From the IMG/VR virus record IMGVR_UViG_3300036823_000041, positions 1 to 62,291 of that record: a stretch of DNA of 62,291 bases; one strand, written 5' to 3'. The translations under genes and the position numbers were made by a program. This stretch comes from a virus. Under the pieces are notes generated by a model that was given only the letters and a program-made list of their open reading frames with translations, made no database searches and was not told the origin of the DNA. This document shows, piece after piece, positions 14,301 through 60,787 of this stretch. The stretch's first letter is position 1. Each line of letters begins with the position of its first letter.

Positions 14301-15253
14301 CCTTTGTGGTCGGCATGACGGTGGCGACCGGACTCATCGGCGCCCTGCTCGAATATCACTGGAACGGACACGGGCCGCGGTCCTCGAAAGACTTCTTTTA
14401 CCCGCAGCGGGCAGACGGCCAGCGCGTCAACGTCCCCGGCTACATGAAGGACGTCGTCGCGTTCGCGCACGCGCCGGTGCAGACCGTGCTCAATAAGCTG
14501 GCGCCGGTCTTCTCCACCCTCGCCGAGCTCTACCAGAACAAGGATTTCTATCGCGTGGAGATCCGGCACGCCGACGACAACTGGCTGCAGCAATCGGAAG
14601 ACACCGGCAAATTCCTCGCGAAGTCGCTCGAGCCTTTCAGTGTGAGCTCGCAGCAGAAGATGATCCAGAACCAGGGCGCCGGCGTCGACACGGGTGTCGG
14701 CGGGATGTGGCGCGCCGTGCTCACGCATCCCGAGGACGCGGTACTCGGCCAGCTTGGCTTTCAGCCAGCGGCGGCCTATGTCCAGAACACCCCGGCGCAA
14801 AACCTGGCCTACGAGTTTTCTGTCTCCAACTCGCCGCCCGGCACGCGCACCCAGGCGCAATTCGAACGGTCGCAGGTCAAGCAGGCGATCACGGCGATGC
14901 ACCGCGCGGGAAAGGTCGACACGGCGCAGATCAACGAATACATCCGCTCGGGCAAAATCACCCGGCACGACGCCGACCTCGCGGCGAAGAATGCGAAGGT
15001 CGACCCGCTGGTCGGCACCGTCAAGCACGGCGAGCTCACTCTGCCGCAGATGCTCGACGTCTTCGACAAGGGCAATGCGCGGGAGCGCAAGCTGCTCCGT
15101 CCGATCCTCGAGCGCAAGGCTCAAACCTACAGCGAGCCGGACCGGGAGCGCCGGCTCGCGGTCAAGGCGAAGCTGCGTCAGGCGCTCGGACACAATCCGC
15201 CGCCGGTCACCGACTCCGACTCTCTCTGGGAGACGATTTCAACGCACCGCTAA
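5303..15253 (+). CDS. Giant polyvalent protein (ejected, counter-defence type)
   Basis: 3316 residues, the longest gene of the window. It begins with two PDLLDDV tags (residues 2-8 and 15-21). Visible modules in order: an Ala/Gly-rich hydrophobic stretch near 155-180; a GGDEF-derived domain near 785-855 with DADGLKAFNDRFGYESGD and a KGDEF signature; a ParB-like nuclease fold near 1000-1200 with NGHHRTQRA at about 1061; a block EEVQSDWHQ (about 1676) to WTPGEKQAERYDLSKQV that recurs in phage large polyvalent proteins; a degenerate zincin-like EELAH (2283-2287); and a C-terminal region of about 800 residues with a hydrophobic segment near 2990-3015. Such multi-domain proteins (Iyer and colleagues' polyvalent class, including P1 DarB-like members) are injected with phage DNA and resist host defences. 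That role is inferred here. Confidence 0.75.
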   Translation: MPDLLDDVASDHAQPDLLDDVASQQQPDQGDAAAAQQMREGPPPTAKGPSIPDPGMREESVGRAVFGPAQGAVDAVKQVPGVGLLGGKKLNDPLTGTIDTEKRGAATFKEGLDLLGPDNFADNSAEGFKRTARGFTKLADGAMTMSSPALAAEMGGNPASIIPIAKGIITGSITGAAAQKITKAAGFSQDYQDLAKTVGFFIPTAAGAMFGATESPVKFGEGTGTVTDYAAPKGATGPGSGRVSTFTGSNPQEFTAGARVGGRTFGIRIPRGRAAAPGAAGPDVLPPPPSPGMAQAASDAKAAAAALNADQAATQAAQRTQAGIPPPEPPKPAGMDQGELRPGTVSDAAKLIQMAPENMRGPMMLEAHGNLTKWLATNGKVIMPDGKIQIIDSPDKAAKVAQDLLNSEVDRHQQAFEQQKADRQKAAEDAAKQQQEGEEATIEQAGQPGGEEEEENPVVARARTILAANANAPQSRQLALLQRQLRVGPGMANQLLRQAQAGKAAAMAGGMVGSSTEPVTPEPNEQVDAQIQSLAKGTVPVVFLPEGSKYKPAIPPGMKAIKVSGADTPGAGTYVYNPTKIQAAAIKEAAKNGTHGDLLGHINDKGAITGMKVPAILQAKTADGTPIQESVVDGANPQEVRDQAAALRERHPDAHIQIRHPEAALNERDHLIARSETGGGDIFDHIAQERGKGESNAVQKQGTARVLSQPGREEGSRSQGSEGVRPGEQGAEKPATARAGEAEVNPVEGGPRKPEPAERRQDTERRRRVAEMSPEEMRQELQTSEKTGLPNRRAFEEAADKGAVGMSDADGLKAFNDRFGYESGDKLLRAKADALREAGVEAYHDKGDEFLYRGETPEKLRAGLDKARDILRDKIIEVRGADGTTKQFKGADFSHGTGKDIAEAERGLKQHKAEREDRGERRRGELRGFNEAGPETGQEREGAAIKKGDAGVRFKDDKGVERAGTVAHTNERVTRLRANDGKEYTVKTAGLKPAADITPGSIGELHSSQIHLAPKDFQYKVSNIGAEGVSSLLEGSEWNPDLSGIVSVWRDPENGKFYAVNGHHRTQRARQTGGQTLAVRHLVAENRAEARAIGALQNIAEGRGTAVDAAKFLRDSGISLEDLEKKGISMGEATAQNGVALSRLEQSLFDRVATGKLSERKGIAIGRATDNPATQEAIVKMIDKAEARGRHVSDATVQELARFAASAGEKEQTVSSLFGDRVETQNLALEKAEASAYVQKQLRAEKSLFGAVSSEARAKTLARTGNKITAEKNAKESEAAMQALEVYDRLSARRGPVDDLLNQAAKDLADGKPAARTKSELYDGIRAAVRESLGGVQGKSPRRSAPSADRPSNVTPEKEEDGDGRLSAEELEAVGQNGLAFSLERPTFTRDNGPVNPPLTPADPFYLKSSRVVAQKMRGPMKGTDLIKMLENAGVKADELKWTGLQDLVGEAKVTPDQVREVLNQDRVELIEDLKGDIHKDNLPDGWKIQPNEDGDGYEVLDNRGVMVGDGPDRQSALEQAQRQNRAKTAISDTSKYSGYQLRGGENYREMLMQMPAQKAEPTAQEKALLADIDAKYVPLSKEWTALNASSSYEKYLEAGSTIAPDMARNLARTREIEDIQERLIAQQKRTEDAIEKRESAANYKSPHWDEPNVLTHIRFNDRTDADGRKLLHLEEVQSDWHQKGRDKGYREGGEQLAPRPTIARIEKKDGIEWIAYDEAGKLLTHVGAGTEPTEEGAREYMARYLNRRADERDADMRQENYDKVPDAPFKKTWHELALRRMLRYAAENGYDGLSWTPGEKQAERYDLSKQVGQIDYTQHNRLIVHDTGRNVIHNQVVPEEKLEDYIGKEATRKLLETEPRNHSGLGSAFEKSRTLTSPDLKLGGEGMKGFYDKIIPDYLGKYGKQWGAKVGETKLSIPLDKMRDKYAYEGPERTRQEVEAAEDDPHSLAIVNMQSRAVAALMRRNRSFSEAMAEEGSHTLAEYFGGKMVEPEGTKTQVAPYLPVTDAMRKSVMEEGQPLFSRAKLDATPEQQARAQRLTTSDPKFPYLDRPGIAKLYQKNLRGVLLEGESATLPGFEPHVEEHEKSAAEVSSGALEQRGVKDISRATREIEQKSPLFEGSAANDQGALFSRPKPPQPGTGQGGLDFSKAVEGSGFKEMSESRREAFQHDLHFRASSQSIDRNLAGAKVTVHPPAREGAAPLTEINADAYVSLRKLLPEFREVEWAGVYINPKSTQILYKKLMISGSQRDGAMELFKQLSAGETPSGSLVIVRADATLAAAREELAHSWWNDNVAKHEDGENALLEHLHNAPQFLQGLKILDRQGYPIDRMPHGTLLNEIVSKMLADAGGSSMPLSPADVKAFLGQMLDVYANTFSTVTLEKAFDTLPEIAPEAKRILDDWRAQHADNQRDALSARGPEEGHSLATTQGDGASGTRGPPAGQDSGLLFSRERQPGESRGRDEVARQRDLPDEGADEEMSPLDNFVGALTDYIRSDSELDTGKLQRGIMRETRGQMDRRIAQTAVALDKDRMRWAGRSHDAFLKFADAVEKVGGSTVADLDPKDQKLAQYFQDQYWKRIETIRALKEGALQDLIENYISHNWERPGVAEKAFKQVFSGRRPFAGRGSFLKQRTIPTIREGIELGLRPKTWNPVEDFLHKILEMDRFIMGHQTLMGMKQAGTAKMIRVGDRAPDGWLQLDDRIGTVQSKSEDGGLVVRGHYYAPADAAKPFNNFVSRGIAGRSNIYDALRWANNNINALQLGISFFHAMTTTNNAIASDVGLSIQEMSKGQVISGAGRMVRAVTMVPSVVQTFRNGSKLMAEYLSPGSYEKFAKEADALASAGGRVKMDVVQPKPLLQIVSHFRNGEVFRGAGKSLGSIIHATTYPVLEYWVPRMKVGAFYADAHSVLKYAKDKNWTPERTRMEMQKAWDSADHRFGQVVYDNLFWHKALRDVLQLSQRAVGWNYGTAAGVGGAIPEAARAAGRVATGDVSEFGTLFGRAMSFVVGMTVATGLIGALLEYHWNGHGPRSSKDFFYPQRADGQRVNVPGYMKDVVAFAHAPVQTVLNKLAPVFSTLAELYQNKDFYRVEIRHADDNWLQQSEDTGKFLAKSLEPFSVSSQQKMIQNQGAGVDTGVGGMWRAVLTHPEDAVLGQLGFQPAAAYVQNTPAQNLAYEFSVSNSPPGTRTQAQFERSQVKQAITAMHRAGKVDTAQINEYIRSGKITRHDADLAAKNAKVDPLVGTVKHGELTLPQMLDVFDKGNARERKLLRPILERKAQTYSEPDRERRLAVKAKLRQALGHNPPPVTDSDSLWETISTHR

Positions 15254-40171: not shown

Positions 40172-40650
40172 GCGCGAAGGATGAGGAGCTGGTGATACCC
40201 ACGGACTTGGTGACTCACTATGAAAAGGCACAGAGCCATGTAGAGCACGCAGTGTGGGACGCATGGACTAGCGAATTCGTAATTGAACTCATCGAACGCA
40301 TCGCCCGACTCACCGAGGACCGGAAGGCGCGCCCCGTCTTCAGCGGGGAGAGGATGGTCGCTTCGCTCAACATTGCCGGCAACGCGGTCGACCTGCATTT
40401 CGCGATGGAGATATGCGGCGCCGTCCAGGGCCGCGGCCCGCTCTACCAGTTTGTCTGCGTGGCCTGCCGGACCGAGAGCCCGCGCGGTCGTAACGAGTGG
40501 GCGTCGAAGAATACGTTCCTCGACGATGCCGACGAAGAGACGCGCGAGCGGCTGAATGCGGCGATGGTCGAGGCGAGTGAGCACGCGCGGATGCACGAGC
40601 TGATTGCGGCCTGGGCCGCGAAGATCCTGCAGCCTGGGCCGACCGTATGA
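40168..40650 (+). CDS. Hypothetical protein
   Basis: 160 residues from GTG 40168. Helical N-terminus (EHAVWDAWTSEFVIELIERI), a central strand region with NAVDLHFAMEICGAVQG and VCVACRTES, and a helical end. No family recognised. Confidence 0.55.
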   Translation: MSAKDEELVIPTDLVTHYEKAQSHVEHAVWDAWTSEFVIELIERIARLTEDRKARPVFSGERMVASLNIAGNAVDLHFAMEICGAVQGRGPLYQFVCVACRTESPRGRNEWASKNTFLDDADEETRERLNAAMVEASEHARMHELIAAWAAKILQPGPTV

Positions 40651-40946
40651 ACCGCCGCAACTTTCTGAAGTTGGCGAGCGCCGCGTTGGCGTATCGCATC
40701 GTGCCAGTGAAAGCGGCGCCGCTCGTGCGGCCGTTGTCAGTCGACGCTCTAGACCTGCGGAATTGGGGGAGGGTCGAGATCGGGCGCGCGCCGTTTTGGT
40801 ACGAACCCGCGGGCGTTTCGCTGTCCGGCCTGCCGTACTGGCTCGTCATGCCGCCCTGGATCGCCGACACCTACGGCGGGATATCGCGCGTGCCATTAAC
40901 CACTCGAATATCGGACGGCGGCATCGAACGCGGAGGCAAGCCATGA
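40647..40946 (+). CDS. Protein with twin-arginine (Tat) signal
   Basis: 99 residues. MNRRNFLKLASAALAYRIVP matches the Tat consensus (RRxFLK) followed by a moderately hydrophobic h-region and an AxA-type end near VKAAP. Tat substrates cross the inner membrane folded, often with a cofactor. The mature part is only about 75 residues with several Trp and Pro; no function is recognised. Confidence 0.6.
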   Translation: MNRRNFLKLASAALAYRIVPVKAAPLVRPLSVDALDLRNWGRVEIGRAPFWYEPAGVSLSGLPYWLVMPPWIADTYGGISRVPLTTRISDGGIERGGKP

Positions 40947-44981: not shown

Positions 44982-45012
44982 GGCGAAGCCTTTACGGGCT
45001 TCGCCCTTTTTC
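44982..45012 (+). terminator. Intrinsic terminator closing the rightward early region
   Basis: GGCGAAGCC pairs with GGCTTCGCC around TTTACG, followed by CTTTTTC. It separates the small accessory genes from the late promoter P2. Confidence 0.85.
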
Positions 45013-45023
45013 GTGGGTCGCGC

Positions 45024-45052
45024 TTTTGGTATGAGTTCCCGCGGCGGAACCC
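45024..45052 (+). promoter_or_regulatory. Putative late promoter P2 with leader dyad
   Basis: TTTTGGTATGAG (TATGAG 45030-45035) followed by GTTCC/GGAAC arms at 45035-45039 and 45046-45050. Seventeen bases separate TATGAG from ATG 45053; the right arm includes GGCGG as weak ribosome site. It directly follows a terminator. Confidence 0.65.
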
Positions 45053-47287
45053 ATGACCCATCGAATCCTGCGACTTGCCGGCCTGCTCCTCGTCCTCATC
45101 GCTTCCGCGCAGCTCGCGCTCGCGCAGTCGAAGATCCCGCTCATCGGCCACTTCGGCGGCGTCGGCCCGAATCCCGGCAACCCCACCACCTACCAGGTGA
45201 AGTTTGACCTCGCCTACTGCGGCTCGAATATCCCCCGGATCTTCGGCGTGCTTACCCCGTCGGCGACGACCGCGACCTATACCGCGGATTCGACCGGGCT
45301 CATCTCGAGCACCATCTGGCCGAATGACGACATAACCTGCGGGAGCACGATCGGCGGCACGCGCTACAACGTGACGTATCTGGTCAACGGCTCGGCCATC
45401 GGCCCGGTGACCTGCTACCAGGTGCTCTCGACGGTCGGCACCTTCAACCTCGACGCGGCGATTCCCTGCGCGGTGACGCCACCCCCGCCGCCGCCCCCGC
45501 CGCCCTACGTCGACGCAGAATTTCGCAACATGACGCTCTCGGGCGACCTGTTCGCCAACAACGGGACGTTTTACGGCCAGCTCAATGGAATTTTCTATTC
45601 GCATCCCGGCGACACCATCGCCTCGATCGAGGCCGAATGCGCGAACGCCTGCACCTACGTGGTGACCATGCCGCAGACCTTCACCCTTTCCGGCGACCAT
45701 ACCCTCGCCGCGAACGTGAACCTCGACTTCGAATCCTTCGGAAGCTGGACCATCTCGGGCGGCACGCTCACCATCCCCGCAATGGTTCGAGGGACGATGG
45801 CGAAGCACTTCTCCGGCTCTTTCAAGATGGGCATGATGCAGGCGCGGCTGCCCTTTGAGTGGTTTGGCGCGGTCGGGGACTGGAACGGAACGACCGGGAC
45901 CGATAACACCGCGTTCATGCAGGCCTGCCTCAATGCGCTTTATGCCGGCCAGTGCGTCATGCAGGCGAAGACCTACCGCACGACCGCGCCGCTTACGATC
46001 ACTCGATCCTCGATCGGCATCACCGGCACCGGGACAACGTTCGCCTTCCACTCTGTTTTCCCGAATGGCGTCCCGCCGGGCTCTACCATCATGACGACCT
46101 CGGCCTCGGCCGACCAGATCGACGTCTCGGGCGTGAGCGGCTCGAATGCCATCGCCTTCGGCGAGTTCGATCATTTCAACCTCGCGCGCAACCAGGCGCC
46201 GAGCGGCGCGGCGGCCGGCATTGCGCAAAACTACACCTTCTCGATGAGCCTTCACGACCTCACGCTCGAAGACGACATCTACGGCTTCTATCTCCACGGG
46301 GTCGGCGCTTCTTCAAGCGGTCGCCTTGAAAATCTCTCTGTTCTCTTCGGCCAGCGCGGATTCACCGAGGGCGCCGGAAATTATTACGGGTTTTTCATCG
46401 ACTCCTCGGATGGCAAGGCGAGCCCGTCTCTGCGCATCCGCTACACGGACGTGGATGCCTCGGCGGTGACCGGCGGCGCTGCCGTGGTCTACGGCCTGGC
46501 GACCATCGGAACCGCCATCAATGACCTGATGGCGTGGAATTTTGAGACGGCCTCCTGCACCTACGGGGAATGGATTCAGCAGACCGGGCCAGGTTCGGCC
46601 ATCGCGAGCTCGGATATTCACTTTTACGGAGCTATCAACGACGGATGCGTGAATAGTTGCGTGGTCATCCAGGGGACCACCCTCACGGGCGGCGCCGGCG
46701 TCGAGTACCAGGGCGGATACAACACCTTTGCCGTGGGCACATCGCCGGTCTTCGATATTTTGAATGCGGTCAACGTCCGCATCTCCAGCGTCCAGATCGG
46801 CATCGCGCTGAATACCCTGGCGTCGGCGGCCATCGCCGCGCAGAACTCCTCGAACATCACCCTCACGGCGAACCAGATTCAGGGCATCCGCAACGTCGGC
46901 ATCCTGTTCAACGGGGTGACGCAGGCCTCGATCACCGCGAACATACTCACCGGCAACGGGTCTGCCAACGGCCTCATTCTGCTGCAGAACGGGACCACCA
47001 ACGTTGCCGTCAACAGCAACACCCTGAGCACCCTGAGCGGCACCGGCCTGAGCATCTTCGAGGACAACACCAGTCACGGAAACCGCGGTTTTGAAACGAA
47101 TACCATCGCGTCGACCCTCACCGCGCCATCCCTGCTCGGATCGACCTCCATCCAGATCATGACGACCGCGCCGAGCGGCACCTGTGTCGCCGGCTCGTAT
47201 GTGATCAACACCTCCACAACCGCGGGCACGTACACCAGCTACAACTGCAAGGGCACCGCCTGGGTAGGGAACGGAACGCCGTACTAA
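45053..47287 (+). CDS. Exported tailspike-like beta-helix protein
   Basis: 744 residues. A clear Sec signal, MTHRILRLAGLLLVLIASAQ then LALAQ, opens the protein. An Ig-like domain follows to about residue 140, then a poly-Pro linker. From about residue 268, FEWFGAVGDWNG and DNTAFMQACLNALYAG are the hallmark of pectate-lyase-type phage tailspikes. The rest has right-handed beta-helix repeats rich in Asn and Ile (SSNITLTANQIQGIRNVGIL) and ends in a small beta domain. These normally degrade or bind surface polysaccharide. A signal peptide is not expected on a cytoplasmically assembled tailspike. Confidence 0.7.
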   Translation: MTHRILRLAGLLLVLIASAQLALAQSKIPLIGHFGGVGPNPGNPTTYQVKFDLAYCGSNIPRIFGVLTPSATTATYTADSTGLISSTIWPNDDITCGSTIGGTRYNVTYLVNGSAIGPVTCYQVLSTVGTFNLDAAIPCAVTPPPPPPPPPYVDAEFRNMTLSGDLFANNGTFYGQLNGIFYSHPGDTIASIEAECANACTYVVTMPQTFTLSGDHTLAANVNLDFESFGSWTISGGTLTIPAMVRGTMAKHFSGSFKMGMMQARLPFEWFGAVGDWNGTTGTDNTAFMQACLNALYAGQCVMQAKTYRTTAPLTITRSSIGITGTGTTFAFHSVFPNGVPPGSTIMTTSASADQIDVSGVSGSNAIAFGEFDHFNLARNQAPSGAAAGIAQNYTFSMSLHDLTLEDDIYGFYLHGVGASSSGRLENLSVLFGQRGFTEGAGNYYGFFIDSSDGKASPSLRIRYTDVDASAVTGGAAVVYGLATIGTAINDLMAWNFETASCTYGEWIQQTGPGSAIASSDIHFYGAINDGCVNSCVVIQGTTLTGGAGVEYQGGYNTFAVGTSPVFDILNAVNVRISSVQIGIALNTLASAAIAAQNSSNITLTANQIQGIRNVGILFNGVTQASITANILTGNGSANGLILLQNGTTNVAVNSNTLSTLSGTGLSIFEDNTSHGNRGFETNTIASTLTAPSLLGSTSIQIMTTAPSGTCVAGSYVINTSTTAGTYTSYNCKGTAWVGNGTPY

Positions 47288-47304
47288 AAAAACGAAGGAG
47301 CTCC

Positions 47305-50300
47305 ATGCGTCTGAAGATTCTTGCTCTCGTCGCCCTGCTGGTCGCCGTACCGCTTGCCGCCTCGGCGCAATATCAGGGATGCCGGCAGATGTTCCCCGGC
47401 GTGAGTGTCGACCAGGCCTGCATCCAGCTATCGGCAAATATGCTGCTCGGCCCGAACGGCCTGCCGCTTACCGCCGGCAAAGTGGTCCTGACCGTGACCG
47501 ACGCGAGCGGCACTCCCATCAGCTACACCCCGCAGGGCGGCACGAGCTCGAGCGGCGTCTTCACCGCGCAGGTCGTCGACGGTGCCATCCAGAATATCGG
47601 CGGCTATCCCTACACCATCGTCAACTCGCTTACGAGCTCGCCGGCGAACCCGAACCTGTATTTCCATTACCAGCTCGAGTCGACCGACGGCTCGCAGGTT
47701 TATCTCGACGCGCCGCTCCTGAATATCTTCTCCTCGACCGGCGGCTACGCTCTCGATGCCTACGCTGCCGGCGCCGGCACTTCGATCAGCGGATTGCAGC
47801 CGCCGCGCGTGCTCTGCGCGCCGTCGGCGAAGTACACCCAGACCGACGCACCCGCGGGCGCGAAACCCTGGATCTGCTCGCATCTCTGGCGCACTGACAA
47901 CTCGAACCAGTGGACCCAGAACCCGTCGGCAAACACGCAATGCCCCTACGGACAGGCGGTCGTCTCTCCGCGCGTCGGGAACGCCTATTGCATCCAGCCG
48001 GAGAACGCCTTCGCGCTTCCTGGCGAGGGATTCCAGAATCAGGCAAACGTGCCTGGCCCGATTAGCATCGAGCCCATTAACGGCTCGGGCGGCGGCTCGG
48101 CGTTGCCGCTCGGCATCCCGCAGCAGGACAGCCTCGGGCCGCCGGAACCCCCGGCACGTACCGCGGGCGCGCTCGATCTGATCGCAACCGGAACCACCTT
48201 GCACCCGCAGTGGATGAGCTTTACGCCGGCGATCATCACCCAGACCCTGATCGACACCAAGTTCAACGAGGGCTCGGCCGGCGCTCCAGTCATCGGCACC
48301 GCGCCTGCGATCAATGTGCCTGGCAATAGCTGGATCGGCGTCGGCGGCACCTTCGCGAGCGCGCCGGCGTTTGTCTCGGGCGGCGGCATGGCATGGACCT
48401 CGGCCGGCTCGCAGCTCATGCTGATAAATATCGGCAGCTACGGCGGCGACGTCACCTACAAGAATCTGGTAAACCCGGCCTTCGGCTTCACTCTCATCGG
48501 GTTGTCGGACGCTACCGGCGCCAACCAGGTGCAGATGCAGCTCGTCGGCACAAGCCTGCAAATCAGCAAGGTCGTCGCGAACATCTTCACCAATATCGGC
48601 AACCTCACCGTCGCGCCGACCGGAACCGATACCTGGGATTTCATCGTCTCCGGGCAGACCATGTCGGTGAAGCTCAACGGCGCGAGCGTGGGATCGGTAA
48701 CGCTGCCCTCGGGCACCCCTATCACCACGAACCAGTACTGGGGCGTGGGATTCGGCGCGCCGAACCCGGTGCTCGGCGAGTTCATCTACACCGGCACGAC
48801 GACGGTGACGAATCCGATTCCCGCGGTCGGAACCTTCTGCCTCCTCGGCGGCAACGGGAAATGCGGCCCGCTGGTCCCGAATCAGGGCATGGCGCCGCGC
48901 ACCGACGGCTACGTCTCGAGCGTTCCCGAGATCGGCTATTCGACCAACAGCGACGGCACCTCGAGCATCGCCTGGCGCGAGGATCGCAACAGCGGTCAAT
49001 TCGACGTGCGGCGCCCGCGCAACGGAGTGACCTGGGCGAGCGACCCGAATACGGCCTTCGCGAATACCGTGAACGATGCCGTCTGCACGACGATCGCGAC
49101 GCATATCCTGCCGACGGTCAATCTGCCGGCGGGAATCTTTCACGTCACGAATCTGCAGGCGCCTCCGACCCTGACCATCAACGGCGTCAACACGCAGCCG
49201 AACCAGCAGGGGACCACCCTGTTCAATACCAATGCGGCCAACGCGGTCATGGTCGGCGTCCCGAGTTACACGACGAGCTGCAATGGCGTCACGACCACCT
49301 TTGCCGGCATCGGCACCGTCATCCGGTACATAGATTTCGAAGGCCTGGGCGCGACGGCCGCGACCGACATCGGCCTGACGGTGACTCAGTCGACCGGCAA
49401 AGTGGAGTACGACTCCTTTAACAACTTCGGCGGTCCCGGCTTCCGCGTCACCGGCATCAACAACGCCGGCGACCATCTTTTCCTAAATGGCGATCTGGCC
49501 TGGTATTACAATTCGCCCTCCTACAATCCCTCCGGCTTCACCGATACGGCCTATCATGCCGCCGCCGAGCTCGGCAGCCAGGACGGCCAGTATCACGACA
49601 TCTTCCAGACGGGATGGCAGCCCTCTGCCTTTGTCGCGGGCCAGGGCTACTACAACCGCTGGTATCTCTGCGGCGTGCTGCTCGAGGGTTCGCCGAGCTA
49701 TCCCTTCACGAACAGCTTTGTCCAGGTAAACGCCAACGATCTGTGCCTCGGCCAGCAGGGCATCGGCGGCTACATCGTGACGAACAACCGCTTCGACCTG
49801 GCCCATTTCAATTCCGTGCGACTGCCTACGGGTCCGGCGCCGCAGCAGGCCATCGTCCGCAACAACGAGATGACGACCGCCTGCACCTCGCCGACGCTGA
49901 ACCCGGCGAACTTCCCGAGCGATCCCGGCGGCGTCTCGCCTGATCCAAACTGCGCCAACATCCGCGTCGAAGAGGCGTATCTCACCTCGCAAATCGGGCC
50001 GAATGAATACACCGGATCGTTTGTGCCGTCATGGCCGGTGGGCGCCGTGTTCTTCGAGCAGAACGTCTCAGGCCAGCTACCGGGCCGCGCAGATGAGCCA
50101 GGGCAGACCGTCATCGGGCAGACTGGCGGCGACCCGGTCGACGGCAATCAAGGCGTGGACGTCTCGCAGAGCATGGTCGGCGAAACCAGGGTGACCTTCG
50201 GACCCGGAGCGCCGGTCATTCCGATGAATCAATACCGCTCGATTCATCTGTCGAGCAGCACGGCGACGAGCTGGACCTCGGCATCGGTCGAGTATCTGGA

Positions 50301-51291
50301 CACCATCCGCTATATCGACGTAGGGCCAAACGACACCATCGTGAACGGCAACAACCTGGCGCTTTGCGGCGGTCTGAACATCACCGGCGACACGTCGCAC
50401 GTCCTGCACGAGTTTTACTTCTGGCGCGGCAACCTGGTCGAGTTTGGCTGCGGCGGCTCCGGCACCGGCGTGCTCTATCCGAGCGCCACGCAGAATGCCC
50501 TGCCGCGCGCAAATATCGTCGGCGGCGTGACCTCGCTTGAGGATTCAGCATTTGGGGACGACGGTTTCAACTCCTCGACGAGCGAGCCCTTCTACAGCCC
50601 ATCGAGCTACGAGCGCGCCACGGGAACCGCGACCTCGTCGCAAAACTACGTTTCTGGAGTTACGAATTACATCGTCAGTTATTGGGACACGTCGACCGCA
50701 GCCGCGGTCGGCGTCGCCTGGAGCGTCTACGGATGGGTGGCGCAGGGCGCATCGCCGCCGGCGACCGTGCTCACCTACTACTGCCCGACCGGCCTGCCGA
50801 GCTGCGCGGTGCTTTATGCGATCGACCCGGCGCTGCTTGCGACGAGCTCCCAGAACTACGCTTCGCCGAAGCTCAAGGTACGCGGCGCATGCTGGAACGG
50901 CACCACCTCGGTGCTCGACGACTGGAACATCCAGGGCGTACCCGGCACCGGCGCAAACCCGAGCGAGACGCTGGTGTTCTCCCACTCAGGATGCGGAGGG
51001 GCTACGGTCACGCTCGAGATGCCTGGGCTCAAGGTCGACGGGCTCTCGGCGATCGGCTCGGGAGTCGCGACAAATTCAGACATCGACGGCGAGTTCGCGT
51101 TCTCGGCTGCGACGACCGCGACCTACACCTGGCAGAACTCCTACGTCTCACATCCTGAATGCGTCCCTGAGCCGCAATTCTCGACGACGGTTGCCCACTG
51201 GGTTACCTATACCGGCGTGACATCGTTCACCATCAACTTTGCTTCGGCCGTTACCGGCAACGTGGGTTATCTATGCTTGTCCAGAAACTAA
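47305..51291 (+). CDS. Large exported fibre/tailspike-like protein
   Basis: 1328 residues with AAGGAG upstream. Signal peptide MRLKILALVALLVAVPLAAS-AQ. The N-terminal domain (about 30-160) is beta-rich, with ANMLLGPNGLPLTAGKVVLT and LNIFSS. A jelly-roll/lectin-like stretch spans about 300-500. From about 560, NGVTWASDPNTAFANTVNDA begins a beta-helix with parallel Asn/Gly-rich coils. The C-terminal part from about 1100 has further beta domains with Cys pairs. Likely a receptor- or glycan-binding protein; exported by its signal. Confidence 0.65.
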   Translation: MRLKILALVALLVAVPLAASAQYQGCRQMFPGVSVDQACIQLSANMLLGPNGLPLTAGKVVLTVTDASGTPISYTPQGGTSSSGVFTAQVVDGAIQNIGGYPYTIVNSLTSSPANPNLYFHYQLESTDGSQVYLDAPLLNIFSSTGGYALDAYAAGAGTSISGLQPPRVLCAPSAKYTQTDAPAGAKPWICSHLWRTDNSNQWTQNPSANTQCPYGQAVVSPRVGNAYCIQPENAFALPGEGFQNQANVPGPISIEPINGSGGGSALPLGIPQQDSLGPPEPPARTAGALDLIATGTTLHPQWMSFTPAIITQTLIDTKFNEGSAGAPVIGTAPAINVPGNSWIGVGGTFASAPAFVSGGGMAWTSAGSQLMLINIGSYGGDVTYKNLVNPAFGFTLIGLSDATGANQVQMQLVGTSLQISKVVANIFTNIGNLTVAPTGTDTWDFIVSGQTMSVKLNGASVGSVTLPSGTPITTNQYWGVGFGAPNPVLGEFIYTGTTTVTNPIPAVGTFCLLGGNGKCGPLVPNQGMAPRTDGYVSSVPEIGYSTNSDGTSSIAWREDRNSGQFDVRRPRNGVTWASDPNTAFANTVNDAVCTTIATHILPTVNLPAGIFHVTNLQAPPTLTINGVNTQPNQQGTTLFNTNAANAVMVGVPSYTTSCNGVTTTFAGIGTVIRYIDFEGLGATAATDIGLTVTQSTGKVEYDSFNNFGGPGFRVTGINNAGDHLFLNGDLAWYYNSPSYNPSGFTDTAYHAAAELGSQDGQYHDIFQTGWQPSAFVAGQGYYNRWYLCGVLLEGSPSYPFTNSFVQVNANDLCLGQQGIGGYIVTNNRFDLAHFNSVRLPTGPAPQQAIVRNNEMTTACTSPTLNPANFPSDPGGVSPDPNCANIRVEEAYLTSQIGPNEYTGSFVPSWPVGAVFFEQNVSGQLPGRADEPGQTVIGQTGGDPVDGNQGVDVSQSMVGETRVTFGPGAPVIPMNQYRSIHLSSSTATSWTSASVEYLDTIRYIDVGPNDTIVNGNNLALCGGLNITGDTSHVLHEFYFWRGNLVEFGCGGSGTGVLYPSATQNALPRANIVGGVTSLEDSAFGDDGFNSSTSEPFYSPSSYERATGTATSSQNYVSGVTNYIVSYWDTSTAAAVGVAWSVYGWVAQGASPPATVLTYYCPTGLPSCAVLYAIDPALLATSSQNYASPKLKVRGACWNGTTSVLDDWNIQGVPGTGANPSETLVFSHSGCGGATVTLEMPGLKVDGLSAIGSGVATNSDIDGEFAFSAATTATYTWQNSYVSHPECVPEPQFSTTVAHWVTYTGVTSFTINFASAVTGNVGYLCLSRN

Positions 51292-52418
51292 TCCTGCTCG
51301 CGCTGCTCCTGATCCTGCCGCGATCGCTGATGCTCCAGAACGTCCAGGGCGCGAGCGGCGTGCGCGGCGTGGCGATCGGCAATCAGACCGGCGCAACCCC
51401 GCCAACTTCCGGGCTCATCTACTCGCCCGTCGCCGGCCACTACACCAGCGCGCAGAGCGTCGGCGTCACCTATAACCCGAGCTCGAGCGGCATCGCCGTC
51501 TTCTACACGCTCGACGGCTCGGCGCCATCCGCAGCCTCGGCGCGCTTTACCTCGAATCTTTCGATCTCGTCCAACACCACGATGAATACGTTGGCCGAGG
51601 CGATCGGCTCGGTGCGCCAGGAGACGCAGGCGACCGGCTCGCTCTGGAAAATCTGCACGCCGGTGGGCGGCGGTCCCGGCACGCCGACCTCGGTCAAATG
51701 CGGCGGCGTGGGATCGACGCAGCCCTCCGGCTGGACCGTGACCTATGGCGCGACGGAATCCATTTCCGTGTCCGCGACCTCCGGCGCGCCGCAGATCCTC
51801 ATCACGCTCGGCGGCTCCGGCTGCGACTCCTGCACCAACATCACGATGGACAAGTGGATTCAGCCACTCAATAATCCCAACCCGAACGTCGAGAACCACG
51901 AGCACGACGCCTGGCACAACAACGGCGCCGGCAACCGCCTCCATATGGGCGGCCTGCAGTGCAACCAGCAGACGGCCTTTCTGCAATGGCAGTACGACAA
52001 CGAGCAGGGCTCGTGGCAGAACCACGTGCCGGCGATCACCCAGGGATGCCCGCTCTCGACGACACTCTGGACGCACATCATCTGGAAATTGCACTGGTTG
52101 GGCGCAAGCGACGATGGCTGCGGCGACGGCCACTCTCCGAGCGTGCATGGCGGACTCGGCTGCACCTATTACGACTCGCTCTCGATCGGCACCGCGACCT
52201 CGCCGGCAGTCGGCGCCACCATGACCGCCTACGCCATCAACGCGACGCTCGAGAACGATAACCCTGGATGGGGCGGCGGCTGCGCCGACCAGGACCAGGT
52301 CGACCTGCGGCCGGGCGGAACCTTCCCGAAAACAGGCGGCGTCAAGGTCCAGCACAACAACGTGACATGCTCGACGGGCACAGTAGCAACGGCCTCGGCC
52401 GCGTACACGATTCCATAA
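51273..52418 (+). CDS. Exported fibre-like protein with chitobiase C-type domain
   Basis: 381 residues, overlapping the previous gene by 19 bases. The N-terminal hydrophobic stretch (LVQKLILLALLLILP) is a weaker signal or anchor. Residues about 45-115 (IYSPVAGHYTSAQSVGVTYN, then FYTLDGSAPS) match the CHB_HEX_C carbohydrate-associated fold. The C-terminal 230 residues have His/Asp/Cys-rich loops (NPNVENHEHDAWHNNGAGN) like a lectin or glucanase domain. Polysaccharide binding is inferred. Confidence 0.55.
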   Translation: MLVQKLILLALLLILPRSLMLQNVQGASGVRGVAIGNQTGATPPTSGLIYSPVAGHYTSAQSVGVTYNPSSSGIAVFYTLDGSAPSAASARFTSNLSISSNTTMNTLAEAIGSVRQETQATGSLWKICTPVGGGPGTPTSVKCGGVGSTQPSGWTVTYGATESISVSATSGAPQILITLGGSGCDSCTNITMDKWIQPLNNPNPNVENHEHDAWHNNGAGNRLHMGGLQCNQQTAFLQWQYDNEQGSWQNHVPAITQGCPLSTTLWTHIIWKLHWLGASDDGCGDGHSPSVHGGLGCTYYDSLSIGTATSPAVGATMTAYAINATLENDNPGWGGGCADQDQVDLRPGGTFPKTGGVKVQHNNVTCSTGTVATASAAYTIP

Positions 52419-52432
52419 GGAGAATCACGAAG

Positions 52433-53455
52433 ATGAGAGGCAAATGGAAATTGCTGCTTGCCCTGGCTATATCGCTTCCGCTGGCCGCGCAGCTCGGCGG
52501 TCCGAACGAGAATCGCCTGGCTTATGTCGATACCGGCGGCGGGTTCACTCTCTGGAACGCGGTCACCGACCCGGCGACGCCGCCGTATCCGATGCGCGGC
52601 ATCAATCTCTGGTGCCAGAACGGAGCTACGGTAGGGCATTGCAACCCATCCGGCGGGCCAGGAGGAAGCACCTCCATCACGTCATCTGATAGCAGCCTCA
52701 CCGTGAACCCTAGCCCGCTGACTGGCACCGGGACTATCAACCTGAATCTCGCGCACACAAATATTTTCACTGCGGCGCAGACCTTCAATGCCGGCATTAC
52801 CTCGCAGTTCAACGGCAACGCGCTTGCGATGGCCGACGCCACGGGCGGGCAAGGTCTTTTCACCGTCAACTTGAACCAGGTCGGGACCGACTCCTACGCG
52901 CGCGTCTACTCGGCTTTCAATAACGCATACCTCAAGGCCAGCACGAACTCGGGCAGCGGAGTCGCCGCGTTGCAGCTCGGCACCTCGGCGGTATCGCATA
53001 ACGTGCTCGCGGTCCCCGGCGGCGCGGGCGTGGGGCTCTCCGATTCGGTCATCGGCGATACCCTGCTGCTCGCGAGCGCCGGCAACCGCATCCTCATCGG
53101 AACGACCGGCGCCTCAAACGTGCAGGTCAGCAACGCGCAAATCTCAACCACGCCGAAGACCATCACCGCGAGCGCGACTCCGGCCATCTCGGCGACCGAC
53201 AGCAACCTGCAAATCATCACCCTGTCGGCAAATGCAACGCCGACCATAGCGAATATCGCCGCCGGCCAGCGAATCATCCTGAGCATCTGCCAGCCGGCAA
53301 CCGGTGGCCCTTTTACCTGGACATGGCCGGCTGCGTTTCATGGCGGCATGACCATCGGAACGACCGCCAGCACCTGTTCGCAGCAGGCATTCGACAATTT
53401 CAACGGAACCACCTATCGCGCGGAGAATGCGGGGGTTGCCAATGTCGCACCGTAA
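52433..53455 (+). CDS. Exported tail-fibre-like protein
   Basis: 340 residues from ATG 52433 with AAGGAG upstream. Signal peptide MRGKWKLLLALAISLPLAAQ. The body has trimeric-fibre features: SLTVNPSPLTGTGTINLNLA, a LANAT-like region near 215-240, then a C-terminal globular end with paired cysteines (SICQPATGGPF and TCSQQAFDNFNG). Similar C-terminal ends occur on phage and bacterial fibre proteins. Confidence 0.6.
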   Translation: MRGKWKLLLALAISLPLAAQLGGPNENRLAYVDTGGGFTLWNAVTDPATPPYPMRGINLWCQNGATVGHCNPSGGPGGSTSITSSDSSLTVNPSPLTGTGTINLNLAHTNIFTAAQTFNAGITSQFNGNALAMADATGGQGLFTVNLNQVGTDSYARVYSAFNNAYLKASTNSGSGVAALQLGTSAVSHNVLAVPGGAGVGLSDSVIGDTLLLASAGNRILIGTTGASNVQVSNAQISTTPKTITASATPAISATDSNLQIITLSANATPTIANIAAGQRIILSICQPATGGPFTWTWPAAFHGGMTIGTTASTCSQQAFDNFNGTTYRAENAGVANVAP

Positions 53456-54989
53456 AGCGTTCGCCGCCCTGCTGCTGCTTTTCTCGGGAGCCGCCTGCGC
53501 GCAGACCTCGGTCAACGGCGTGTCTGGGCAGGCGGTCGGCAGCACCTATATCGGCCTGGTGACGACGCGCAACGAGATGCAGGAATCGCTGAACGCCTCG
53601 GCGACCTGGTCGATGGGCCGCGTCATGCAGTACGCGCGCCGCCCGATTGCCGCCAACACGATGAAGATCGTCTTCGGGAACTTCTACGTCCCGAGCACCA
53701 ACGTCGAGACGAGCCCCGGCACCGGAACCTATAAGGTGAGCGTCGAGTATCCGCTCGGCACCTTTGCCGCCTGCACCTTCGCCGGATCTGCGACGGGATC
53801 GGTGACGGGCATCGGCCTGGCGACGACCGACGCCTGCGGCCCTGCTATCCCCGACGGCGCGCGGTTCTGGATTCGCGTGCTCTACACCAACCCTGCCGGC
53901 ATGATCTACACGGCCGGAGGCTCCAACCATTACGGGTTGCAGTTCCAGACCGCGCAAGGAGACGCATTCATCTTCGGCACCGGCACCGCGGCGGACTACA
54001 CCGCAGGCACCGCCGTCGGCTCCGGCTCTCCGGTCTTCTCTGCAGCGACAACGGCGCTCATGGCGCCGGTGGCCGTGCTGGCGCCTACCAATCAGGCGAC
54101 CGTGGTGCTGGTGGGCGACTCGCGCTGCGTCGGGAACGGTGACACGGTCAGCGACCAGTCGGCCGACCAGGGCGAACTCGCGCGGCCCGTCGGCATGCAG
54201 TTCGCCTACTCGAAGCTCTGCGCGCAGTCGGGCACCGCGGCGGCCTTTGTGACCAGCACCAACTCGGCCGAGCGCCAGATCCTCATCAATTCCGTAATTC
54301 ATCCGACGCTGGTCATCGACAGTTACGGGGTGAATGACATCTTCACCGGCGGCGCCGTTGCGACGCTTATCACCAATCTCAATGCGATCGCCGCGCTCTG
54401 GCCCGCGATCGAGACATGGGGGACGACCATACCGCCGGAGACGACGACGGCAAGCCTGACACTCACGGCGGCCGGCACGGCATCGGGCGGCGTCACCGCC
54501 TACGTCGGTACCTTCCCCAACTGCGGGACAAATGCCTGCGTGGGCGCGTTCTTCACCGTCGCAGGCTTCACGAACGGAGCCAATAACGGCACCTGGGCGG
54601 CGACGGCCTCGACGACGACGGCTCTCACCCTGGCAAATACGGCGGGAGTCGCGGAGACGCATGCCGGCACGGCAACCGACAATTGGGGCACAACCGTCAA
54701 TCAGGCCTCGGTGAACGCCGGGCAGACCTCGAACCTCTACTCGTTTAACTACGTGTTTGCAATGCGCGGCTCGATTTTCAATGAGCGGCGGGTGCTCGAC
54801 ATCAACCAGATTTTTGACCCCGGAAATACCGGGCTCTGGCCGGTATCGGCGCTGAATGGGCAGACGGTCAACGCGCAGCGCACCAACTACGCGACGACCG
54901 ACGGAGTTCACGAGTCGTACCAGGGCAACCAGCTCATCGCGAATCGGCTGGTGAATGCCTTCGCAGCTCTCGCGCGGGTGAACCCCTAA
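53442..54989 (+). CDS. Exported SGNH/GDSL-type hydrolase
   Basis: 515 residues from ATG 53442 (GGGGG upstream; ATG 53427 is too close to its ribosome site). Signal peptide MSHRKAFAALLLLFSGAACA-Q. SGNH blocks are visible: VLVGDSRCVG with Ser near 226, YGVNDIF (Gly/Asn) near 295-301, and DGVHESYQGNQ (Asp/His pair) near 487-497. An inserted beta domain of about 100 residues splits blocks III and V. Such enzymes deacetylate or de-esterify glycans. Esterase activity on the host surface is inferred. Confidence 0.75.
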   Translation: MSHRKAFAALLLLFSGAACAQTSVNGVSGQAVGSTYIGLVTTRNEMQESLNASATWSMGRVMQYARRPIAANTMKIVFGNFYVPSTNVETSPGTGTYKVSVEYPLGTFAACTFAGSATGSVTGIGLATTDACGPAIPDGARFWIRVLYTNPAGMIYTAGGSNHYGLQFQTAQGDAFIFGTGTAADYTAGTAVGSGSPVFSAATTALMAPVAVLAPTNQATVVLVGDSRCVGNGDTVSDQSADQGELARPVGMQFAYSKLCAQSGTAAAFVTSTNSAERQILINSVIHPTLVIDSYGVNDIFTGGAVATLITNLNAIAALWPAIETWGTTIPPETTTASLTLTAAGTASGGVTAYVGTFPNCGTNACVGAFFTVAGFTNGANNGTWAATASTTTALTLANTAGVAETHAGTATDNWGTTVNQASVNAGQTSNLYSFNYVFAMRGSIFNERRVLDINQIFDPGNTGLWPVSALNGQTVNAQRTNYATTDGVHESYQGNQLIANRLVNAFAALARVNP

Positions 54990-54994
54990 CCCGC

Positions 54995-55017
54995 GTTTTG
55001 GTATGAGTGTCTGCGAC
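54995..55017 (+). promoter_or_regulatory. Putative late promoter P3
   Basis: GTTTTGGTATGAG with TATGAG at 55002-55007, then exactly ten bases to ATG 55018, with a TGTC/GACA dyad. A start about seven bases after TATGAG would leave a leader of only two to four bases. Confidence 0.6.
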
Positions 55018-55317
55018 ATGAAACGGCTCCCCAGATTCGGCCCGTTTGTACTCGTGGCAGGGTGCCTTTTTACATCCGCAGCTCCGCGCCGGTCCCCCGG
55101 CCAGATGCGGCATCACAGCGATCGCGATTTCGAAAAGCTCGAAAAGACGCAGGACGACATCCAGAAGCACGTCGAGAACACCGACAAGAATGTCCTAGAT
55201 AACAAAGAGCAACTGCTGAAAATCGAGACGATCGCGGAGTGCTTCATGTGGATCGGCGGCTTTGTAGGATTCGGCGGTCTGGCGGCATTTATACGGAAAA
55301 AAGGAGATTCGGCTTGA
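55018..55317 (+). CDS. u-spanin-like lysis lipoprotein
   Basis: 99 residues from ATG 55018. A lipobox VAGC (Cys16) ends a short hydrophobic signal. A hydrophilic coiled-coil-like segment follows (residues 32-70, HHSDRDFEKLEKTQDDIQKH). One transmembrane helix (about 74-92, ECFMWIGGFVGFGGLAAFI) and a Lys-rich end close the protein. Outer-membrane lipoprotein plus C-terminal inner-membrane anchor is the definition of a unimolecular spanin, as in T1 gp11, which fuses the membranes at lysis. Next to holin and endolysin candidates. Confidence 0.65.
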   Translation: MKRLPRFGPFVLVAGCLFTSAAPRRSPGQMRHHSDRDFEKLEKTQDDIQKHVENTDKNVLDNKEQLLKIETIAECFMWIGGFVGFGGLAAFIRKKGDSA

Positions 55318-55601: not shown

Positions 55602-56132
55602 ATGGGGAACCCTGCCATTCCGCACTCTGCAATGCTGGCGCTCTGCCAGAAGCACGGCCCGGAGCTCAAGACCGCGGCCGGCATCGACGGCGTCACCCTG
55701 ATGGCCGCGATCGCGCAGAACGAATCGACGTTTGGCGAGAACGTCACCCCGCGGCACGAATCGGCTTACGACTTCGCCGGCTTCTACTCTTCCAATCCCG
55801 ACCAGGCCGCCCTGCTCCAGAAGTACGGCTCGAAGGCGGCCTATAGTTACGGTCCCTGGCAGACGCTTCCCTGTAACGCCATGAGCACTTCGCCAGACCT
55901 GCTCGAGTCAGACCTCGAGATTGCGGCCGCGGCTTTCGTGCTCGACTTCAACCGACGTGTCGCACCCCGCGGCCATTCCCTTTTCCAGTATGCCCAGATT
56001 TACAACGGCGGCCACGTCGCCAGGAATCCGCTCCCCGGCGTGATCCGCTACGCCGACGAACTCGCAGCCAACTACGCGATATGGGCGAAAGCCCTCGAAC
56101 CGGAGGCAACCGATGCACCTTCCCTCTCTTAG
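55602..56132 (+). CDS. Endolysin, lytic transglycosylase/lysozyme-like
   Basis: 176 residues from ATG 55602; ATG 55587 is in frame. LMAAIAQNESTFGENVTPRH carries the catalytic Glu in an ES motif. AYSYGPWQTLPCNAM matches the SxGxxQ block and YAQIYNGGH the YNGG block of goose-type/Slt-like lysozymes. An aromatic helix follows. No signal peptide or transmembrane arrest sequence, so release would need a holin. Cleaves murein between MurNAc and GlcNAc, inferred from family. Confidence 0.7.
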   Translation: MGNPAIPHSAMLALCQKHGPELKTAAGIDGVTLMAAIAQNESTFGENVTPRHESAYDFAGFYSSNPDQAALLQKYGSKAAYSYGPWQTLPCNAMSTSPDLLESDLEIAAAAFVLDFNRRVAPRGHSLFQYAQIYNGGHVARNPLPGVIRYADELAANYAIWAKALEPEATDAPSLS

Positions 56133-57016: not shown

Positions 57017-57049
57017 CCCGCGGGCTTCGCAAGGCCCGCGGGCATTTTT
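57017..57049 (+). terminator. Intrinsic terminator after lysis genes
   Basis: CCCGCGGGC pairs perfectly with GCCCGCGGG around an 8-nt loop, followed by CATTTTT. It separates lysis and head genes. Confidence 0.85.
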
Positions 57050-58240: not shown

Positions 58241-60787
58241 TTGGCAGAGCCGACATCCATTTCGGTCGATACACCGGACCAGACCAAAGCCATCGTCCGC
58301 ATCGACCCGCAAGCCGCCGGGCTCGAGCAGACCGCCTCCGACGACCCGACGCCATTTGCGCCGGCCACGCCGAAGTCTCAGGAGGACAAGGACGCGGTCG
58401 AGCGCATGTCGCAGCGCATCACCGACGCGCTGCGCGAAGTGCGCCGGCAGTTCCTCACCGCCGATTCGGCCGAGTACAACTCCTACCTTCGCCGCATCAC
58501 CCGCTGCTTTGAGACGTTCAAAAATAACCCGTACATTCTCTACAACGACACCACGGGCACGACCGACACCATCTCGCAGATCATGCGCTCGCAGAATGTC
58601 GATACGAGCGACCAGATCGACCTCTATCAGTACAACGACAACGTCTACCAGATGCTCGGCCTTACGCTCATTGCCGCGCTAGGCGAGGACATCCCGCGTT
58701 GCCGCTACCAGCCCACCGATGCCGAGAACGAAGCCGACATCCTCATCGCCGAAAAGGCCTCGCTTATCCAGGCCGACAACGAGCGCAAGAACGGAGTCGC
58801 CGCTCTCCAGAAGAAGGAGCTCCTCTACTTCTGGTGCACCGGCTCGTATTTCAAGTACACGCGCAACGTCGTCGATGCGAACCGCGCCGGCGTAACCCGG
58901 CAGCCCGTCGTCGCGATGAAGCCGACCGAGACGGCTCCGGCCCGCTACATCTGCCCGGATTGCGGCGAGGCGACTCCCGAGGCCGACTTCAACCAGCGGC
59001 CAGGCTCGCCGATGGCGCTTGCCGGCGGCGATCAGGGCATGGGCCAGGGCGCGCCGGACGATCAGGGCATCCAGTGCCCGCAGTGCAACGCGCAGATGGG
59101 CGATGCGGACTGGCACGAGCCTTTCAATATGGACATGCCGCAGCGCGTCGGCGAAAAGGTCGTGCCCAACTCGATGTGCGCGATCGACGTTTATTGCGGC
59201 GCCTCGGTTCGGATCAATCCCAAGGCCGAGGATCTCTACGAATCGAAGTATCTGGATCTTTCCGGCGAGGTCGATGCCGGCACCGTGCGCGCCGCGTACC
59301 CGGATTTCTGGGATCAGATCGGCGGCAACAAGGGCGAGAACGCGGACCCGAGCGATCAGCAGGGCGTCACCGTGCGCCGGCGCATCGGCTCGCCATCCGG
59401 CACCGATACCGCCCTGAGTTCCACGCTCAATGGCACCTACTCGCGGTGCTGGCTGCAGCCGGAGGCGTTCAATATCCTCGATGACCGCGATCTCGCCGGC
59501 GACCTGCAGCGGCTCTTTCCCGAGGGTGCGAAGCTGGTTTTGTGGGGCGACACGCTGGTGCTCGATGCGGTGCCCGACAAGATGATGGACCACTGGACCC
59601 AGGCCCGCACCATCAAGGGGCTCGGCGCGTATCCGTTCGGCATCGGCGACGCGGCGCTCGACATCCAGGCGCGCATCAACAGCACCGCGAATACCATCCA
59701 CGCCTACATGGACCGCCTGGCATTCGGGACCATCCTGGCCGACGCGGAGCAGATCGACGTAGAGCGGCTGACCGACAAGGCCTTGCATCCGGGCAACTTT
59801 ACGGAGATTTACCGCAAAGACGAGAGCGGGATGCTGGACAAGCGGCTCGAGGACATCCTCTACCAGCCCGAGTTCCACATCGACTCCCATATTTTCCAGT
59901 ACCAGCCGCAGCTCATTCAGCTCGCCCAGGTCATTGCCGGCGTGCAGCCGCAGACCTTCGGCGGCTCGGACCCGAATGTCCAGACCGCGGCCGGGCAGGC
60001 GCAGATGCTTCGCCAGGCGATGGGCCGCATGAAGCTCTTTTGGGACCAGATCCGCGAGGAGCATGCCGCCGCCGCAGAAAACAGTGTTCGCTGCACCGTC
60101 CAGAACATGGACGCGCAAATGAAGATCGTCACCGAGGGCTCGAACCCGGACAGCTATCAGACCGTCGTGCTGCTCAAAAACCAACTCGTCGGCGACTTCA
60201 TGGCGTACCCGGAGACGGAAGAGGGCATGCCGGCCTCCTACGACGAGATGCGCGCGAACCTCATGCAACTGCTCGAGCAGGCGCAAAAGAGCCCGTTCCT
60301 CTCGGCCGTGCTCTCCGAGCCGGACACGATGAAGCTGGTCGCGCGCTACATCCTGCCCTACGGCGCGAAGATGCCGGGAGATGCCGAGCGCGCGCGCATC
60401 AAGACGGTCATCGGCCAACTCTCGAAGCAGGCACCCCGCCAGGTGCCGCCGCCGCCGCAACAGCCAGGGGCGCCGCCCGCGCCGCCGCAGTTCATCTCGT
60501 CGCAGGTACCGTCGCCCGATTACGACGACTACGGCATGATTGTGGAAATAGCGACGGAATGGCTGCAGGAAAACTGGCAGATTGCGCAGACGCCGGGCTT
60601 CATCAACGTGCTGCTCTACATGAAGGAAGCGAAGTCTCAGGCGACCTTGAATGCGATCAAGATGCAGCAACAGGCCGCCGCGGCGCTGCCCCCACCGCCT
60701 GCCGCCGGATCTGGCCCGAAGCCGCCGGGAGGGCCGCCGCCCGGCCTTCCCGCGGGCCATCCCCCAGGTCAGCAAGCTATCCAGTAG
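58241..60787 (+). CDS. Portal protein
   Basis: 848 residues from TTG 58241, preceded by GGGGTAAGGA. Podovirus portal features are seen: an N-terminal helix with YNSYLRRITRCFETFKNNPY, a wing with ELLYFWCTGSYFKYTRN, AYMDRLAFGTI and SGMLDKRLEDIL in the stem/clip region, and a helical C-terminal barrel ending in Pro/Gly/Gln repeats. Residues about 235-290 insert a four-Cys zinc ribbon (CPDCGEATP, CPQCNAQM) in the wing. The dodecamer is the DNA channel at the capsid vertex and partner of terminase. The C-terminal Pro-rich tail is unusually long. Confidence 0.8.
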   Translation: MAEPTSISVDTPDQTKAIVRIDPQAAGLEQTASDDPTPFAPATPKSQEDKDAVERMSQRITDALREVRRQFLTADSAEYNSYLRRITRCFETFKNNPYILYNDTTGTTDTISQIMRSQNVDTSDQIDLYQYNDNVYQMLGLTLIAALGEDIPRCRYQPTDAENEADILIAEKASLIQADNERKNGVAALQKKELLYFWCTGSYFKYTRNVVDANRAGVTRQPVVAMKPTETAPARYICPDCGEATPEADFNQRPGSPMALAGGDQGMGQGAPDDQGIQCPQCNAQMGDADWHEPFNMDMPQRVGEKVVPNSMCAIDVYCGASVRINPKAEDLYESKYLDLSGEVDAGTVRAAYPDFWDQIGGNKGENADPSDQQGVTVRRRIGSPSGTDTALSSTLNGTYSRCWLQPEAFNILDDRDLAGDLQRLFPEGAKLVLWGDTLVLDAVPDKMMDHWTQARTIKGLGAYPFGIGDAALDIQARINSTANTIHAYMDRLAFGTILADAEQIDVERLTDKALHPGNFTEIYRKDESGMLDKRLEDILYQPEFHIDSHIFQYQPQLIQLAQVIAGVQPQTFGGSDPNVQTAAGQAQMLRQAMGRMKLFWDQIREEHAAAAENSVRCTVQNMDAQMKIVTEGSNPDSYQTVVLLKNQLVGDFMAYPETEEGMPASYDEMRANLMQLLEQAQKSPFLSAVLSEPDTMKLVARYILPYGAKMPGDAERARIKTVIGQLSKQAPRQVPPPPQQPGAPPAPPQFISSQVPSPDYDDYGMIVEIATEWLQENWQIAQTPGFINVLLYMKEAKSQATLNAIKMQQQAAAALPPPPAAGSGPKPPGGPPPGLPAGHPPGQQAIQ

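Follow-up and report, generated by a model that had tools for sequence, protein, structure and literature searches.

We analysed a complete IMG/VR virus record of 62 kb (IMGVR_UViG_3300036823_000041; all 62,291 nucleotides, hereafter the window), in which a cassette of five consecutive genes lies on the + strand at positions 45053-54989. An earlier reading of this DNA from its letters alone (the sequence-only reading) took the products, of 744, 1328, 381, 340 and 515 residues, for tailspikes, fibres and a GDSL esterase with export signals. The five open reading frames are present with these lengths and in this order, and a codon-usage gene caller chose the same five. Protein 1 (45053-47287, 744 amino acids (aa)) has a Sec signal (ASA|Q or ALA|Q; | marks the predicted cleavage site), a Cys-containing N-domain, a tailspike-like body (WFGAVGD...TDNTAF...) and a C-terminus of the phage-fibre type. 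Protein 2 (47305-51291, 1328 aa) has a Sec signal (ASA|Q), an N-domain and a beta-rich body; its C-terminal module (residues 1179-1233) also occurs in the signal-less tail fibre gp15 of the phage Tunturi_3 (45% over 58 residues). A hydrophobic N-terminus, a CHB_HEX_C_1 domain (residues 52-111) and a Cys-rich C-terminal part make up protein 3 (51273-52418, 381 aa), while protein 4 (52433-53455, 340 aa) combines a Sec signal (LAA|Q) with repeats judged fibre-like by eye. In protein 5 (53442-54989, 515 aa), a Sec signal (ACA|Q) stands ahead of an SGNH hydrolase.

The catalytic blocks GDS, GxND and DxxH can be read in protein 5 as VVLVGDSR, GVNDIF and TDGVH, and its match to Lipase_GDSL_2 (E 0.0048) is under the curated cut-off. 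The mature part has homologs among the SGNH proteins of Mesorhizobium, Rhizobium, Shewanella and Gordonia phages (E 8e-28 to 2e-9), and from the blocks and this homology to annotated proteins we assign protein 5 as a predicted member of a phage SGNH-hydrolase family. For proteins 1, 2 and 4, no glycoside hydrolase or lyase catalytic domain was matched in Pfam above the cut-off, and the CAZyme-type evidence in the cassette consists of the accessory CHB_HEX_C_1 domain of protein 3. Sequence searches of the PDB gave no meaningful match. The tailspike, fibre and esterase label has partial support, from the assignment of protein 5, the CHB_HEX_C_1 domain of protein 3 and the module that protein 2 has in common with the Tunturi_3 fibre. 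It is weaker for protein 1, which has a weak beta-helix-type match (NosD, E 0.0013), and for protein 4; not all five are clear tailspikes.

Signal peptides were scored in the first 35 residues by rules for a basic n-region, a hydrophobic h-region and small residues at -3/-1. Proteins 1, 2, 4 and 5, which begin with MTHRILRLAGLLLVLIASAQLALA|Q, MRLKILALVALLVAVPLAASA|Q, MRGKWKLLLALAISLPLAA|Q and MSHRKAFAALLLLFSGAACA|Q, respectively, scored 8.1-9.6. Such scores are above background: when residues 2-40 were shuffled, 0-0.3% of 2000 shuffles matched the observed values. Signals were found in six of the 79 genes of the phage, four of them inside the cassette (block permutation for some five-gene block with at least four of the six positives, P = 0.003). 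The sequence-only reading had described four textbook Sec signals and one hydrophobic stretch, and this is what we found, the four ending in Ala|Gln. Protein 3, which has the hydrophobic stretch alone and in which no good cleavage site was scored, is doubtful as a Sec substrate. A small protein encoded at 40647-40946 has a twin-arginine-like leader (MNRRNFLKLASAALAYRIVPVKAA).

Signal-bearing genes in related and cultured phages

As direct queries, proteins 1, 2 and 5 found no relatives in IMG/VR, and GenBank phages contained nothing that matched protein 1, 2 or 3. A lack of close relatives is as expected of receptor-binding genes, and judged by these searches the cassette is hypervariable. Therefore, relatives were sought with two other proteins of the phage, its portal and its 3316-aa virion protein. 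The count covers thirteen portal loci whose upstream sequence is at least 5 kb long (two pairs are near-duplicate) and genes of at least 140 aa. Signal-bearing genes, mostly fibre-like, lie near the portal in 12 of the 13. The gene caller placed some starts late: the signals of L043 and L047 are at upstream starts, and L040, G003, L041 and G002 are ambiguous. In G005, whose only link to the window phage lies in the GGDEF-like region of the giant protein, a 612-aa gene has a strong signal. The N-terminal part of protein 1 has a homolog in G004 (27% identity over ~230 residues), which also carries a signal peptide and in which six Cys are invariant. One relative of the portal was located on a small contig of an acidobacterial metagenome-assembled genome (MAG; Candidatus Angelobacter, Terriglobia), which provides a lead for the host; these soil viruses probably infect Acidobacteriota.

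Two families of signal-bearing proteins could be aligned among the relatives. In family A (G002, L041, L042, L040 and G003), the signal and the N-domain are kept to about residue 270, after which no similarity is detectable; between G002 and L041 the identity is 93% over residues 1-285, and two Cys are invariant in the family. Similarly, two adjacent genes of G003 have ~200 N-terminal residues in common and differ thereafter. In family B (L042, G002, L041, L040 and L038), Ala20 (-1) and Gln21 (+1) are the sole invariant residues before residue 60. A conserved N-terminal part followed by an exchanged distal part is the usual pattern of receptor-binding proteins, and the alignments place families A and B in it; the pair of protein 1 and its G004 homolog fits weakly. 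AlphaFold models of protein 1 and of family A were unusable (pLDDT 33.7 and 31.6, respectively) because there are too few relatives.

The same arrangement is present in a cultured phage. Tunturi_1 is a podovirus isolate that infects Tunturiibacter psychrotolerans X5P2 (PMC11924767); the records used for Tunturi_1 and Tunturi_2 were PP887698 and PP885685. Signals are carried by gp12 (1190 aa), gp13 (675 aa), gp14 (919 aa, annotated as tail spike), gp16 (149 aa) and gp17 (1184 aa, annotated as virion structural protein), in all five at the depositors' own start codons. Those of gp13 and gp17 were recognised by eye, as they have a proline in the hydrophobic core, which the initial score disallowed. 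The genes are flanked by the tail-adaptor gene and the nozzle-like gene, and Tunturi_1 has no further evident large fibre- or spike-like gene. Gp17 has a Beta_helix match (1.4e-4). Among twelve late proteins that were compared between Tunturi_1 and Tunturi_2 it diverges most, with a divergent internal block and a length difference of 96 residues. As in the cassette, gp12-gp17 of Tunturi_1/2 comprise four large fibre- or spike-type proteins and a small fifth one, form one block, are Cys-rich and have signals ending in Ala|Gln or Ala|Thr, whereas the portal lineage and the protein sequences are unrelated to those of the window phage. Since the Tunturi_1 portal has no similarity to that of the window, at least two portal lineages have the trait; a scan of IMG/VR with the Tunturi_1 portal returned no loci. 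The tail fibres of Tunturi_3, a phage of the same host strain, have no signals. The main text of the Tunturi paper mentions neither signal peptides nor mass spectrometry (PMC11924767).

Several features bear on whether the signals are used. Gln at +1 is found in 17 of 40 predicted signals in the acidobacterial MAG and in 23 of 38 in the phages. Cys makes up 1.7% of the cassette proteins (55 in ~3220 mature residues) versus 0.3% of other virion-module proteins (19 in ~6050), and 2.1% of the Tunturi_1 signal proteins (85 in 4117 aa) versus 0.4% of the Tunturi_3 tail and fibre proteins (14 in 3510 aa). Genes for Thioredoxin_4 (DsbA-like) proteins are present in the acidobacterial MAG. On the sequence level, the invariant cleavage site, the host-style cleavage and the Cys-richness argue that export is functional.

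Fate of the cassette proteins

The sequence-only reading left three outcomes open, namely secreted glycan-active enzymes, adhesins displayed by the infected cell, or virion parts added after export. The exchange of modules and the lack of another large fibre or spike in Tunturi_1 favour the last of these. We therefore propose, at about even chances, that the cassette is a receptor-binding set of tailspikes, fibres and an SGNH esterase, and that its products leave the cytoplasm through Sec, fold in the periplasm and join the virions at lysis. Late transcription would start from a repeated element at 45024. The proteins, whose signals are seen in the sequence, would pass through SecYEG and be cleaved after Ala and before Gln; the Cys-richness and the conserved Cys suggest that they would then fold, form disulfides and oligomerise in the periplasm. 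Attachment to the tails of particles assembled in the cytoplasm may take place when the downstream lysis genes open the cell. The distal, receptor-facing part would be swapped from phage to phage and the signal and N-domain kept, as is seen in the relatives. A broader claim, which we hold tentatively and at a little less than even chances, is that several unrelated lineages of acidobacterial tailed phages finish their virions outside the cytoplasm, through Sec export, periplasmic disulfides and attachment during or after lysis. Several points weigh against the proposal for the cassette. Locus L049 has no signal-bearing genes within 10 kb of the portal. No virion proteomics or cryo-EM was found for these phages, and virion incorporation is putative; no virion-anchor domain is common to all signal-bearing proteins. 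For the joining of parts after lysis we found no direct precedent in the literature. In the acidobacterial MAG, secreted proteins taken as a class are not Cys-rich (0.47% versus 0.99%), and therefore a high Cys content does not in itself mark export in this host but is specific to these phage proteins. Finally, a conserved signal-less protein encoded at 639-2102 could serve the window phage for adsorption. It lies beside the nozzle gene, has repeated beta units of ~90 residues, shows 71% identity to its counterpart in G001 and 41% to that in G004, and is a candidate for a constant adsorption or tail-tip protein.

The last point keeps alive the chief rival, which we consider possible though doubtful: that export does take place but the proteins never become part of the virion and are instead glycan-active enzymes and adhesins made late and destined for the periplasm, the medium or the cell surface, where they might loosen extracellular polysaccharide, mask receptors on sibling phages and debris, or work on the matrix ahead of lysis. 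The functional look of the signals agrees with this, as do the SGNH catalytic blocks and CHB_HEX_C_1, both common in secreted bacterial enzymes, and Bdellovibrio sends fibre-like proteins with a signal peptide and a beta-rich N-domain to its own surface (PMC10769870). However, module exchange behind a conserved N-domain is the receptor-binding pattern, the genes lie within the structural and lysis late region, at least two per phage are many for accessory enzymes, proteins 1, 2 and 4 have no CAZy-type catalytic family, and Tunturi_1 would be left without an evident large spike or fibre. It is unlikely that the N-termini are not used for export at all and serve instead as hydrophobic segments for virion assembly or membrane contact in proteins that stay in the cytoplasm. 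Cytoplasmic assembly of fibres is normal in tailed phages, no clean cleavage site follows the hydrophobic stretch of protein 3 or of a few relatives, and the SGNH relatives from Rhizobium phages start with short, hydrophobic, Gly-rich leaders that are possibly anchors; yet the invariant part in family B is the cleavage-site residues and not the hydrophobic core, proteins that the host secretes have the same Ala|Gln style, and the phage proteins are Cys-rich. Least probable, and to our minds scarcely credible, is that the phages acquired secreted proteins of the host as morons (lysogenic conversion factors), with signals merely inherited. The signals are host-like, CHB_HEX_C_1 domains are present, and some relatives (G003) have an integrase-like gene. 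Protein 5, however, belongs to the phage SGNH family, which is found in tail regions and lacks signals; a signal-less homolog lies within a prophage-like tail region of an acidobacterial genome (L098 8794-10023, G207), and relatives of protein 5 occur in just two of 297 acidobacterial genomes. That protein 5 has a signal which its phage relatives lack speaks against simple capture of host secreted genes. An origin as ordinary captured host genes is thus rejected chiefly in the case of protein 5 and in part in that of protein 2, which has a module in common with a Tunturi_3 tail fibre.

Parts of the proposed system have known counterparts. The P22 tailspike and podovirus fibres are likewise products of late structural genes, long and beta-rich, with a conserved N-terminal part and an exchangeable distal part, but the cassette-type proteins differ from known tailspikes and receptor-binding proteins in their Sec signals and Cys-richness. 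To our knowledge, none of the latter carries a Sec signal, and their folding is cytoplasmic. The SGNH proteins of Rhizobium, Mesorhizobium, Shewanella and Gordonia phages are 26-31% identical to mature protein 5 and are encoded near tail or lysis genes; unlike protein 5, they have no signal peptide, and several begin with a short Gly-rich leader. The nearest analogue, by architecture only, is the MAT fibre proteins of Bdellovibrio, which have a signal peptide, a conserved beta-rich N-domain of ~130 aa and variable tips resembling phage fibres (PMC10769870), but these are encoded by the bacterium and displayed on its own surface. Glycan-active auxiliary genes of soil phages are similar in being phage-encoded and could act on extracellular glycans, whereas proteins 1, 2 and 4 have no recognised CAZy catalytic domain; the phage GH32 enzymes that were checked have no signal peptides (PMC4595243). 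In the open-access literature searched, we found no report of Sec signals on the tailspikes or fibres of tailed phages. Within that literature, the main inference of the sequence-only reading stands: tail-type proteins of a phage have real export signals, which match no described system. The inference extends to several phage lineages, one of them in culture.

Tailed phages are taken to assemble entirely in the cytoplasm. If virion attachment after export is true, the route of assembly would be categorically new, and a host-style export signal on the receptor-binding set throughout a clade would break the cytoplasmic rule. Such a signal would also account for the production of spikes rich in disulfides, and it could connect the fibres of phages with those that predatory bacteria export. 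If the proteins are instead not part of the virion, phages of an abundant soil phylum would secrete a battery of adhesins and esterases before lysis, which bears on the turnover of soil polysaccharides. As cultured phages with and without signals grow on one host strain, the question is directly testable.

Transcription layout and neighbouring genes

A terminator-like hairpin with a CTTTTT tail (44982-45005, + strand) ends the transcription unit upstream of the cassette. It is followed by a late-promoter-like copy of a repeat (GCGCTTTTGGTATGAGTTCC; 45020-45039, + strand), with the repeated element TTTTGGTATGAGT at 45024, 29 nt 5' of gene 1. The 13-base core of TTTTGGTATGAGTTCC is found at 2547, 45024, 54996, 55580 and 60805 (one mismatch in the last), always on the + strand; five matches in the window were reached by none of 100 shuffles. 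Two perfect copies of the core are present in the relative G001. The element is probably a phage-specific late promoter. The sequence-only reading had placed all five genes behind one late promoter (P2), which stands in substance, as the repeated element at 45024; no sigma-70 consensus was found, and the element itself does not match one. The next promoter-like copy (54996-55008, + strand) starts right after the stop codon of gene 5, and the cassette is therefore flanked by two such elements. The copies of TTTTGGTATGAGTTCC precede late genes, and each is followed by a short GC-rich inverted repeat. An ATG within the element can pass for a start codon (e.g. 55003).

The genes that follow are also on the + strand. 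A small protein with a C-terminal hydrophobic stretch and a weak XhlA/hemolysin-like match is encoded at 55105-55317 and is a probable lysis accessory; its start is uncertain, as 55003 overlaps the promoter-like element. The product of 55632-56132, assigned by eye with no family match, is a probable transglycosylase-type lysis enzyme. A terminator-like hairpin (57017-57042, + strand) closes the fibre and lysis region. The portal-type protein (58241-60787) has no family match and was assigned from synteny with scaffold-like and MCP-like genes downstream in the relatives.

The 3316-aa virion-type protein (5303-15253) contains a GGDEF-like domain (DADGLKAFNDRFGYESGDK...KGDEF) at residues ~772-913. 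This stretch is the part matched by most IMG/VR relatives (51-64% identity), and it also resembles GGDEF proteins of Pseudomonas and Bordetella phages. Two related loci, G003 (L023; 34506-36266) and G009 (L035; 8305-10059), encode a GroEL-like chaperonin (MPRQIKHEDDCRQTILRGMDAVADLVGSTLGPRGHTV...), in both cases just 3' of a small protein with a signal-like leader.

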